This document shows positions 5,794 to 10,313 of a stretch of DNA of 33,332 nt, one piece after another. The notes under the pieces were generated by a model. The model was not told the origin of the DNA. It did not search any database and saw only the letters and a list, made by a program, of their open reading frames with translations. Origin of the DNA: Terriglobia bacterium (GTDB lineage: Bacteria > Acidobacteriota > Terriglobia > UBA7540). A program made the translations under genes and the position numbers. The stretch covers positions 1 through 33,332 of the forward strand of contig JAIQGB010000049.1 of assembly GCA_020072905.1 (NCBI GenBank), read 5' to 3'. Positions within the stretch are counted from its first letter, which is position 1. Each line of letters opens with the position of its first letter.

Positions 5794-5816
5794 ACGTCGT
5801 TCTGACGCCTTCGCTT

Positions 5817-5913
5817 GTCATCCTGAGCGCAGCGAAGGATCTCGGCAGTTCTTGGCCTCAAGCAACTGCTGAGATCCTTCGTCGTCCTGAGGGGCGGGAC
5901 TCCTCAGGATGAC
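5817..5913. repeat. imperfect palindromic intergenic repeat
   Basis: GTCATCCTGAgcgcagcgaaggatct ... agatccttcgtcgtcctgaggggcgggactccTCAGGATGAC; 10-bp terminal inverted repeat and internal GGATCT/AGATCC. Confidence 0.7.
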
Positions 5914-5931
5914 ACCGTGGGGGCATCGACG

Positions 5932-5959
5932 GTCAATAGTCAAGAGTCAAAAGTCGAAA
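5932..5959. repeat. degenerate array, exact 7-nt period
   Basis: gtcaata gtcaaga gtcaaaa gtcgaaa. Confidence 0.8.
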
Positions 5960-6174
5960 ACTTCGTAGGGGCGGGCCCCCGTGCCCGCCCTTCTTCTCAC
6001 AACCGAAATCTCCAATCTCCTTTCGTCCACGTTCCGGCCCGCAACCCCCCGCGCTTGGGCTCGCAACTCCTTGACTCCCCCCGCAAGGAAGAAGAAAATT
6101 CTTCCCGGGGAATCGCAGGCCTCATAAACCAGGGGTCTGCCCCAGCCCGCCAAATCAGCCATTGGAGGTGTCCC

Positions 6175-6732
6175 GTGAAGGCGGCGTCTGCTCTGCTTTC
6201 TGCGCTTCTCATTCTTTCCTTTGCCGATTCAACGCTCGCACAGGGGGAGCGGAATCCGGAGATAATCATCGACGGCGTAAGTGTATCGCTTGGAATGCCC
6301 GAGCAGACTGTCTTGTCGAAGCTCGGTAGCGAACACCGCGTCGAGAAAGTATCGGGCGACGTGCGCGCCGATATGTGGTTGGTAATGTCCAAACAGGGTC
6401 CGCCCTCGGTATCGTACGGGAGCGTTTCCTTCGAGGATGGAAAGCTCTCGCAGGCTAGTGTGGATTGGGCCAATTCTGCGGACCGGGGAGCATTGGGGTT
6501 TGCCAGGGCTGTCTTAGGCGCACTTTCGAGCGCGGCAGGACAGTTTGGCACCACTTGCACGGTGACAGTGCGGAGGGCACAGACGCCGGGGTCTGACTAT
6601 AATTTCGCCTCTGTAAAGTGTGGCCGCAGAACGGTCGGAATCAGCCTCCTGATGAGCCTTGACGGTAAAATAGTAAGCAGTGCTTTGGTATCCGAAGAAA
6701 TCAGCTCTGTCGGCGGGTCTGCACCCGAGTAA
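6175..6732 (+). CDS. hypothetical secreted protein
   Basis: GTG start with GGAGGTG RBS; signal peptide MKAASALLSALLILSFADSTLAQ. Confidence 0.6.
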   Translation: MKAASALLSALLILSFADSTLAQGERNPEIIIDGVSVSLGMPEQTVLSKLGSEHRVEKVSGDVRADMWLVMSKQGPPSVSYGSVSFEDGKLSQASVDWANSADRGALGFARAVLGALSSAAGQFGTTCTVTVRRAQTPGSDYNFASVKCGRRTVGISLLMSLDGKIVSSALVSEEISSVGGSAPE

Positions 6733-6770: not shown

Positions 6771-7430
6771 CTACTTGCTGCCGGGAGTGAAGTGGCGGGA
6801 AATCGCCCCGGATATTCTCTTGCTGCATTTCTCTAAAACATTTAGCTCTTTCGCTTCGAGAAACCTCACAGAGTCTCCGCGCACAATCGCAACCTCTATG
6901 GGAACGTCCACGCGAGGGTCGAGCCTTGCAACTTCGCTGACGCAAAAGTAAGCCAGAAGCTGGCGCTGGTCGCTCGACATTTTCTGCGAATGGTAGCGAT
7001 ACGCAAAGTAGAGCCCGCCATGCCGCTTAGCTCCTATAGCTTCTGGACGGTTTGAGAAGTGGGGGAAGCTAAACGTTGGAGAAGAGAACATCACAATCTG
7101 AGGTTTTTCGTTCGTGAATCCACAAAGTAGCGCGCTAAATGGCGGTTGCGGCTCCGAATATACAGCCTGATAGACTGCTTTCATTCTCTCTGTAAGGCTC
7201 GACACCCACGCCCGGAAATCTCCAGCACAATTGAACCCCTGTGCTTCCAGCTTTTCCAACAAGCTCAATCCGACATCGCTTCCGGCTACGCAGAACAACC
7301 GGTTCCCGCCCGCTTCCCTGATCTTCCGCCCACTGAAACCATAATAGCCGCCTTCGTCCCCCGCGTAGCCAAGGGTATCCGCCGCGACGACGATTTCATC
7401 TTGACCTGGCAGTGCGATGACGACGCTCAT
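6771..7430 (-). CDS. proteasome beta-subunit/HslV/Anbu-like Ntn hydrolase, predicted Ser nucleophile
   Basis: M-SVVIALPGQDEIVVAADT...GRKIREAGGNRLFCVAGSDVG...YHSQKMSSDQRQLLAYFCVSEVARLDPRVDVPIEVAIVR; in-frame TAG 9 nt upstream of ATG fixes the N-terminus. Confidence 0.7.
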   Translation of the reverse strand: MSVVIALPGQDEIVVAADTLGYAGDEGGYYGFSGRKIREAGGNRLFCVAGSDVGLSLLEKLEAQGFNCAGDFRAWVSSLTERMKAVYQAVYSEPQPPFSALLCGFTNEKPQIVMFSSPTFSFPHFSNRPEAIGAKRHGGLYFAYRYHSQKMSSDQRQLLAYFCVSEVARLDPRVDVPIEVAIVRGDSVRFLEAKELNVLEKCSKRISGAISRHFTPGSK

Positions 7431-7683
7431 GGGTGGCTAGCTCTTTAGCTCAACCTGGCGGTAGTCCGCTGGTGGCGGATACATCGCGCCTTTTGTGACG
7501 CGTGCAGCAGAATGGCTTCCCGCCACTCACCGAGTGTTGCCGCCGCGTTACCATTCATTGTATACAACGACTTTGAGGGCAATTCAAGGCAGCCTGGAGC
7601 GTGTGAGGGTGGCGCACGCATCGCGTTCTGTGCAATGTGTGCGGTTGAGCCGGCAGGCAAAGCGCCGGCTTGCGTTTGCGCAA

Positions 7684-7707
7684 CATGGTCATTATAATAT
7701 GACCATG
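7684..7707. promoter_or_regulatory. putative toxin-antitoxin operator over a -10 box
   Basis: CATGGTCAT-TATAAT-ATGACCATG, 9-bp perfect inverted repeat 17 nt upstream of the antitoxin ATG. Confidence 0.65.
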
Positions 7708-7724
7708 GTCTTTTGGAGGTGTCC

Positions 7725-7958
7725 ATGAAGCAAATGCCGGCGGGGGAGTTCAAGGCGCGGTGCCTGAAAGTAATGGACCAGGTTCACAAAACACGGGAGC
7801 CCGTGGTGATTACCAAGCACGGGAAGCCGGTGGCCAAGCTCGTTCCTGCCGGCAAGCGTGGCGACGATATCTTTGGATGCCTCAAGGGGCAGTTCGAGAT
7901 TGTGGGAGACATTGAGTCGCCCATCGTACCCCCCGAGGAGTGGGAGGCGCTCCGGTGA
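7725..7958 (+). CDS. Phd/YefM-type antitoxin
   Basis: MKQMPAGEFKARCLKVMDQVHKTREPVVITKHGKPVAKLVP; GGAGGTG RBS. Confidence 0.9.
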   Translation: MKQMPAGEFKARCLKVMDQVHKTREPVVITKHGKPVAKLVPAGKRGDDIFGCLKGQFEIVGDIESPIVPPEEWEALR

Positions 7959-8350
7959 TCCTGCTCGACACCCACGCCCTGGTGTGGCTGATGCTCGAAC
8001 CAAAAAAGCTTTCACGGGCTGCGGGCTCGGCCATTCGCAGAGCGCGGGCGAACGGAGGAATCGGCATCGCCGCCATCAGCCTCTGGGAACTCGCCTGGCT
8101 GTATTCATTGGGCCGCGTGAAGGGCCGTGGCGCGGTCGAAACGTGGTTGAGGGCGATTGTGGAAGCGGCGGGCGTGACGATCGTGCCCATTACATCGGAA
8201 ATCGCCGCACTGGCGACGCAGTTCCCTGAAGACTTCCCTCACGACCCTGCCGACCGGCTCATCGCGGCAACAGCGCGTTCGGAGGGATTGGCATTGGTCA
8301 CGCGGGATGTTCGCATCCGCCAATGCACTCTGCTGAAAACTATCTGGTAA
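7955..8350 (+). CDS. PIN-domain toxin (VapC-like)
   Basis: ILLDTHALVWLMLEP...ISLWELAWL...DFPHDPADRLIAATARSEGLALVTRD; GTGA overlap with antitoxin stop. Confidence 0.9.
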   Translation: MILLDTHALVWLMLEPKKLSRAAGSAIRRARANGGIGIAAISLWELAWLYSLGRVKGRGAVETWLRAIVEAAGVTIVPITSEIAALATQFPEDFPHDPADRLIAATARSEGLALVTRDVRIRQCTLLKTIW

Positions 8351-8553: not shown

Positions 8554-10313
8554 ATGGAATTTCGTTTCCCGGAAGACGCACGCTCTCCGGCCCGGAAGAT
8601 TTCCTTCCTGCAGTGTTTCGTTGCGGGCACATTTTTCTTCCTGCTCTTCGGATACTGGCGCCTACAGATCGCCCATCATCGCCAATATCTCGAACAGGCG
8701 GAACGCAACCGCATTCGCAACCTGCCGGTCATCGCGCCGCGCGGGAGGATTTTGGACCGCGAGGGGCGCGTCCTGGCGGACAACTTCCCCGCCTTCAGCG
8801 TCCTGCTCATGCGGGAAAGCCCAACGGCCCTGACGCCCGAGCGCGTGCAGGGAATCGCGCGCCGGTTGGGTGTCGATCCCGCTGACCTGGAGGGCCAGGT
8901 GGAGCGGGCGGAGAAACTCCCGCGCTTCCAACCGGTCATCCTAAAGCCGTCCGCCACGCTCGAGGACATCGCCTTTGTCGAGTCGCACCGCGTGGAGTAC
9001 CCCGAACTGGACCTCTTGCAGGTGCAGCAGCGCTCCTACCCCAAGCAGACGATCGCCGCCGCAGCACTAGGCTACGTAGGTGAAGTCTCGGAAGAAATGA
9101 TCGCCGAACGCAGCTCACCCTACCGGCCGGGCGACGTGGTCGGCAAGTCGGGAATCGAGCGCACCTACGACTCGATTCTGGCGGGGCGGGACGGGATGCG
9201 CCGGGTCATCGTCAACAGCCGCGGGCAGGAAATGGGCTCCATGACCACGATTAACGCCTTGGCTGGCAATGACTTACGGCTGACGATTGACCTCGACCGG
9301 AGAAACTGACCTCGGACCCTCAAAAGCCGCTGATGAACAAGGCCATCCAGGCGCACTTGGCGCCGGGCTCGGTCTTCAAGATCATCACCGGCGCCGCGGC
9401 CCTGGAAACCGGAACCATCAAACCCAGCTACACGCTGTACTGCCCGGGGCTGGTCAACATTTATGGGCATACCTATCACGACTGGGTCTGGAGTAAGGGC
9501 CGCGGGCATGGGAGCGTGGACTTCCACCAAGCCATCGTGCACTCCTGCGACGTGTATTTCTACACCCTCGGCAAACTCCTGGGGATAGACAAAATTGCCT
9601 ATTTCGCCCATGGCCTTGGACTCGGCGCGCGCACGGGGATTGATCTGCCTGGTGAAGATTCCGGCCTGGTTCCCTCGCCTGAATGGGTGAAACGGGTTTT
9701 CAAACGGCAATGGTGGCCAGGAGAAACGATCTCCGTCGCCATCGGCCAGGGCGCGGTAGCCGTCACGCCTGTGCAACTCGCCTACGCTCTCGGCGGGATC
9801 GCTTCCGGGGGAGAGTTTCGCCGGCCCCATCTGGCCTTCCGTAACCAGCTTCTTGCCCTGGGCGTGGAGCCTGGACAGCAAGTAGAGGATCGCCGCTCCC
9901 CCTTAAGCGAGGAGACCGTCGATGCTCTCTCCCGCGGCATGTGGGGAGCGGTCAACGAAGGGGGCACGGGCGCCGCCGCCTACGAGCTGGGGCTGGATAT
10001 CGCCGGCAAGACCGGAACCGCACAGGTCGTGAGCGTCGGTCTGCAGCAGGCCGCCAAGAAGCACGAGTATCGGAGCAACGCCTGGTTTGTGGCCTACTCG
10101 CCGAGCGCGAAGCCCGAGATCGTGGTTGCAGCCCTGGTCATGCAGGGCGAGCACTCTACCGTCGCGGTGCCCATCGCGCGCGACGTCATCAAAGCGTACC
10201 TGCAGAAGAAAGCGGCGCGACGGCCTCCACCCAATCAGCTTCAGACTCAGATTCGGGTGATGAGCGAGGCCCGGGAGCTTCCACCCGGCCCCGCCGCGGG
10301 AAGAGCGCATTAG
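8554..10313 (+). pseudogene. mrdA: penicillin-binding protein 2 (MrdA), split into two ORFs (8554-9309 and 9333-10313 or slightly upstream) with missing internal segment
   Basis: N-part LPVIAPRGRILDREGRVLADN...LRLTIDLD; C-part (EKLTSD)PQKPLMNKAIQAHLAPGSVFKI, HSCDVYF, AGKTGTAQ; frames differ and about 50 residues between LTIDLD and SDPQKPL are absent. Confidence 0.85.

Follow-up and report, generated by a model that had tools for sequence, protein, structure and literature searches.

The stretch of DNA considered in this work, referred to below as the window, comprises 33,332 nucleotides of a contig from a draft Terriglobia genome, and on its minus strand, at 6771..7430, it carries a gene predicted from its open frame, a held-out family profile, and an AF2 fold to encode a solitary proteasome-like Ntn hydrolase of 219 amino acids, named P0001 here. 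The open reading frame agrees with the original prediction, which left its strand unstated: it is stop-free over 219 codons, while each of the five other frames contains 4–12 stops between 6771 and 7430. The protein begins with M-SVVIALPGQDEIVVAADTLGYAGDEGGYYGFSGRKI, and the bases leading to it read TAG CCA CCC ATG AGC on the minus strand, so that an in-frame TAG (7437..7439, minus strand) stands 9 nt 5' of the ATG. As had been proposed, this stop fixes the N-terminus and rules out a propeptide.

On one side, the gene is flanked by a fucose-isomerase-like gene and an unannotated, convergent ORF (5917..6732, plus strand), which belongs to no Pfam family, has atypical codon usage, and probably starts with a leader (KAASALLSALLILSFADSTLAQ). 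On the other side lies a divergently oriented gene for a Phd/YefM antitoxin (7713-7958, plus strand; PF02604, E 4.9e-13), paired with one for a PIN-domain toxin (7940-8350, plus strand; PF01850, E 1.2e-19). A near-perfect palindrome, CATGGTCATTATAATATGACCATG, is present at 7684-7707, just 5' of the antitoxin gene, and is a candidate autoregulatory operator, while a dispersed palindromic repeat (TCCTGAGCGCAGCGAAGGATCTC... with its inverted partner) at 5796-5924 is found dozens of times across this genome and that of a congener. Farther along, mrdA (PBP2; 8554-10313) is read as two ORFs through a 145-bp out-of-frame deletion near 9298, in comparison with the congener G415, whose mrdA is intact, and this split may be either a real lesion or a fault of the assembly. 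The gene for P0001 is absent from the sole other sampled genome of the genus, where the gene upstream of mrdA is a different one.

No partner AAA+ protein or alpha subunit is encoded near P0001, in line with the earlier claim, and no 20S subunits were found in the genome (draft, 88% complete), whose sole PF00227 match is HslV, encoded beside HslU. A check with PADLOC for a defence-system role gave no match. Regarding its composition, the gene has atypical codon usage and a low coding score; its GC at third codon positions is 0.60, compared with 0.72–0.83 for reference genes in the window, and GC around it drops to 0.52. The low third-position GC and the local fall in GC suggest that the gene was recently acquired horizontally.

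When used as a single sequence, P0001 matches no Pfam, NCBIfam, or PHROG model; PF00227 gives no match up to E 10, and thus the protein fails the curated cut-off. The corresponding search of the PDB returned a proteasome alpha chain at E 0.006 and nothing else, and no relatives were retrieved from 85k species contigs, viral contigs, plasmids, phages, a 396-genome sample of the phylum, or a 40-genome sample of the order. A match of this kind in the genome G370 was rejected, as it is interrupted by stops and no such gene exists there. In a sample of 399 genomes of the class, where unrelated frames and sequences interrupted by stops account for most matches with E from 1e-5 to 0.1, genuine homologues were found only in the genomes G504 and G580. 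The first encodes P0002, a full-length homologue with 27% identity to P0001 (E 1.7e-6), which passes PF00227 with 32.5 bits against a cut-off of 22.4, along profile positions 7-187, or nearly the whole model. The second contains a copy with a mid-gene frameshift, the G580 copy, which matches P0001 at E 8.7e-8 over its C-terminal part. A pattern scan of the 85k species with the alignment of these three sequences returned the same two loci only, both from Acidobacteriota MAGs, and the close kin of P0001 are therefore these two proteins only, both of which have Thr as the predicted nucleophile. As read from translations, the G580 homologue (L133, 7598-8309) appears to reside in an island with tyrosine-recombinase-like flanking genes and XRE-type genes, and the contig of P0002 appears to carry an IS1-type transposase about 7 kb off. 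Given the two loci of the scan and their context, the clade of P0001 looks rare and accessory.

The wider family was accessed with an alignment of solitary homologues of the same phylum, which retrieved about 50 ORFs in all. An HMM built from 41 realigned relatives, with P0001, P0002, and the G580 copy left out, matches P0001 over residues 1-214 with 52.3 bits (E 2.6e-15 for 1000 sequences). By comparison, 2000 shuffles of P0001 that preserve its composition score 3.4 bits at best, and for this reason the resemblance is not attributable to chance. Aligned to the family profile with hhalign, P0001 alone gives E 9e-14 and the pair of P0001 and P0002 gives E 1e-18; the mixed family profile, in turn, matches the proteasome beta (E 4e-17) and alpha (E 9e-17) subunits of the PDB, and its position 2 falls on the mature Thr1 of the beta subunits. 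The proposed similarity to Ntn hydrolases is thus upheld by the held-out HMM, by hhalign, and by the passage of P0002 over the PF00227 cut-off.

Regarding the residues involved, Ser1, Asp17, Lys35, and Gly49 of P0001, counted after Met removal, are in register with Thr1, Asp17, Lys33, and Gly47 of the proteasome; the alignment bears out the three positions initially proposed (S1, D17, and K35) and adds Gly49. Ser1, the predicted N-terminal nucleophile, is encoded by the AGC codon next to the ATG start (7425..7430, minus strand) and aligns with the start-Thr of all the 49 relatives with a readable N-terminus, in which Thr directly follows the start codon (32 ATG, 15 GTG, 2 TTG). A nucleophile at position 2 is thereby found throughout the homologues, as anticipated; none of these 49 relatives has Ser there, which is found in P0001 alone. 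Asp17 (ORF residue D18; 7377..7379, minus strand), the putative Asp of the catalytic triad, has an Asp counterpart at exactly position 17 in 46 of the 49 relatives and within one residue of it in the remainder, a register that is partly dependent on the way the relatives were picked, namely by a profile with M-T rows, even though the selection required neither a start codon nor a Thr. Lys35 (ORF residue K36; 7323..7325, minus strand), equivalent to the proteasome Lys33, falls on a column of the family profile where K is conserved, and Gly49 (7281..7283, minus strand), equivalent to the oxyanion-hole Gly47, belongs to a VAG motif placed on the A-G column of the relatives, with an Ala preceding it as in the Ala46-Gly47 pair of the proteasome.

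Other positions of the active site are less well preserved. The equivalent of Asp166, identified as Asp170 (6918..6920, minus strand) by its position relative to the Gly170 column, is an Asp in P0001, P0002, and the G580 copy. The equivalent of Ser129 is Ala in P0001 and in the G580 copy and Ser in P0002, that of Ser169 is Val in all three proteins, and that of Gly170 is an Asp which, among the three, occurs in P0001 only. As judged by the alignment, the network that keeps the free N-terminus in place, where Ser129 and Ser169 of the proteasome form hydrogen bonds with it, is altered in P0001. Moreover, Ser1 depends on one AGC codon, one base away from the ACC codon for Thr, in one draft genome, and a sequencing error is conceivable at this point.

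The structure of P0001 was modeled with AF2 from an input of six rows drawn from the window and from loci related to it, P0001 and five others, two of the latter being fragments. The model (pLDDT 84.4, pTM 0.85) has a proteasome-like order of strands and helices, with residues 22-31 below a pLDDT of 50, and its 50 best fold matches in the PDB are all 20S proteasome subunits, with E from 3.6e-12 and TM of about 0.6–0.7; further matches are to phage proteins that carry an HslV or proteasome-like annotation. The model obtained from the single sequence is poor (pLDDT 44), and its top 50 matches, restricted to proteasome and Anbu proteins, are weak (E 0.03 or worse) and were treated as a hint. In the six-row model, helices H1 (53-63) and H2 (72-90) are followed by a short loop to the next strand, and the chain ends with a strand (187-190) and a C-terminal helix (193-214); the H1/H2 and H3/H4 loops are free of insertions, and the segment from residue 19 to 36 contains no helix. 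The likeness to the proteasome fold, advanced in the original prediction for the beta subunit, holds in both model and profiles, which match beta and alpha subunits alike. With a predicted alpha-beta-beta-alpha fold and S1/D17/K35/G49 in register, P0001 is placed by sequence and model in the Ntn hydrolases of the proteasome superfamily, as a divergent and solitary member.

Solitary proteins of this kind were described by Fuchs, Alva, and Lupas in 2021, who reported 22 solitary families without propeptide, AAA+ partner, or known function (PMC8665760). Like the WPH and group II proteins of that study, P0001 is propeptide-less and ATPase-free, has the nucleophile right after the Met and the D17/K33/G47 residues (PMC8665760), and its family profile resembles alpha and beta subunits alike; unlike them, it has Ser in place of Thr and is too divergent for PF00227 alone to detect. 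Its ATG-AGC start behind an upstream stop, in a solitary gene, also corresponds to the definition of the solitary set. By description, P0001 thus fits the solitary propeptide-less homologues, as a very divergent member with a rarer nucleophile predicted from its sequence.

Other known systems share some of these features. BPH is also propeptide-less and solitary, and Ser1 is natural in BPH outside Betaproteobacteria (PMC5777263); however, BPH belongs to group I, which lacks the C-terminal S12/H5, and its pore loop is long and acidic; P0001 differs in both respects. Due to the C-terminal strand and helix of the model, a BPH architecture was rejected. The original view of a divergent protein that follows the logic of Anbu and BPH can be refined, as P0001 groups by sequence with the solitary Thr-starting homologues of the group II/WPH type. 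Anbu shares the absence of a propeptide, a similar length, the C-terminal helix, and the Thr1/Asp17/Lys32-33 register, but Thr1 is the rule in Anbu, in contrast to the Ser1 of P0001 (PMC5666114, PMC6376114), and the analysis yielded no sequence match between the two at the level of a family. The partners of the Anbu operon, ATP-grasp and transglutaminase-like proteins, are not among the immediate neighbors of P0001, which are the hypothetical ORF, the Phd/PIN pair, and the fucose-isomerase-like gene. A 20S beta subunit was rejected on account of the stop 9 nt upstream and of the missing alpha partner in a genome that is 88% complete. Finally, Connectase is, like P0001, a propeptide-less proteasome homologue without ATPase, but it lacks H1/H2 and has a helical insertion at S3/S4 (PMC8665760), and its architecture was rejected for P0001 because H1 and H2 are present and no helices occur in 19-36.

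The reading that we favor, with a probability of about 0.7, is that P0001 is a solitary, propeptide-less, ATP-independent, and self-assembling accessory peptidase of narrow specificity, which uses Ser1 and was acquired horizontally. Removal of the Met by methionine aminopeptidase would expose Ser1, whose hydroxyl would be deprotonated by Lys35, held by Asp17; Ser1 would then attack the amide bond with Gly49 as the oxyanion hole, and water would release the acyl-enzyme. Catalytic activity is in this sense a prediction from the conserved residues. Self-assembly into a homo-oligomeric ring or an open ring is probable, because the model has a C-terminal helix and, at H1/H2 and H3/H4, none of the insertions that would hinder ring formation (Fuchs 2021, PMC8665760). 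P0001 would probably work as a low-throughput, narrow-specificity peptidase encoded by an accessory gene with no dedicated ATPase, and the lack of a cognate ATPase points to unfolded segments or short peptides as its likely substrates.

Among the alternatives, an unlikely one is that P0001 is catalytically dead, whether its fold persists in a binding or structural role or the gene, of horizontal origin, is decaying. The altered network around the N-terminus is the main reason for retaining this explanation, to which can be added the change from Thr to Ser in this copy only, the replaced equivalents of Ser129, Ser169, and Gly170, the frameshift in one of the two near relatives, and the atypical codon usage. 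Conversely, S1/D17/K35/G49 are all retained, the frame is intact, and the equivalent of Asp166 is present; furthermore, Ser works as a nucleophile in the proteasome fold, as the T1S variant of the proteasome is slower yet active, keeping 55–60% of the Suc-LLVY-AMC activity and losing 40–45% (PMC4792962), and natural examples of Ser1 are known from CodW, from one Anbu, and from BPH outside Betaproteobacteria (PMC5777263). It counts against the favored reading that Anbu and BPH were inert toward standard substrates (PMC5666114, PMC6376114, PMC5777263). Clearly less probable is the idea that P0001, P0002, and the G580 copy together make up an undescribed subfamily associated with mobile elements, with a role outside bulk proteolysis such as transpeptidation or the cleavage of one cognate protein, for instance the neighboring antitoxin; such a subfamily would have a reduced active site, with no Ser169 equivalent, the Ser129 equivalent mostly lost, and Ser1 in P0001.

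A shade more doubtful still is a Connectase-like monomeric transpeptidase or ligase, in which the amine of a partner protein, and not water, would resolve the Ser1 ester: Connectase, itself a propeptide-less homologue of the proteasome, is active as a ligase, so the superfamily permits it (PMC8665760), but the H1/H2 of P0001 and the S3/S4 helical insertion of Connectase argue against it. P0001 could also be imagined as an HslV-like subunit docking on the resident HslU to make an ATP-dependent protease, given that the genome encodes HslU and that CodW of B. subtilis, an HslV with Ser1, is active together with its ATPase (PMC5777263). This is very improbable, and identity with HslV was rejected, because hhalign gives a probability of 0.9–3.4% against a seven-sequence set of HslV of the order, and because a separate, intact hslUV is located on another contig. 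As for a chance ORF or a coincidental likeness of motifs, to which the lack of any Pfam, NCBIfam, or PHROG match and the low coding score might point, its likelihood is negligible: the held-out profile with its shuffle control refutes it, and the predicted structure and the homologues in two other genomes speak against it too.

Compared with these alternatives, the solitary Ser1 peptidase leaves the known picture of such proteins unchanged, because solitary propeptide-less homologues and natural Ser1 enzymes are both known already (PMC8665760, PMC5777263). What P0001 adds is a predicted natural Ser1 enzyme in a superfamily where Thr is nearly universal and where the reason for this preference is debated (PMC4792962), and its Thr1 sister proteins offer a natural comparison. 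For the solitary homologues, no tested substrate is reported in the literature cited on them. The Acidobacteriota prove to encode a wide range of solitary proteasome homologues with a start-Thr, some of them beyond Pfam detection: across the class there are dozens of divergent ones, sometimes more than one per genome, and several are weakly recognized by PF00227. Solitary start-Thr proteasome-like genes related to those of Acidobacteriota are also carried by two IMG/VR viral contigs (L134, 3001-3654; L135, 2001-2801).

The survey of the class also brought to light a second proteasome-like Ntn family, present in 24 of the 399 genomes, in which a hydrophobic, signal-peptide-like leader stands right before a Thr-Thr/Ser pair, along with conserved cysteines. 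The leader pattern occurs in about 17 distinct proteins and mostly ends in the form AxA or GxG, as in VPASAFA/TTIIAV, SLPVWA/TTVIAL, and THLYA/TSVVAL, with the slash placed before the Thr. Its loci include L035 (G414:C180), L039 (G425:C93), and L043 (G411:C58), in addition to L140, L142-L144, L147, L150-L152, L154, L155, L158, and L159. These sequences suggest exported proteasome homologues activated by signal peptidase, of which no mention was found in Fuchs 2021 (PMC8665760). Should the family be real, its Thr1 would be exposed outside the cytoplasm by signal peptidase, and these proteins may merit more attention than P0001.
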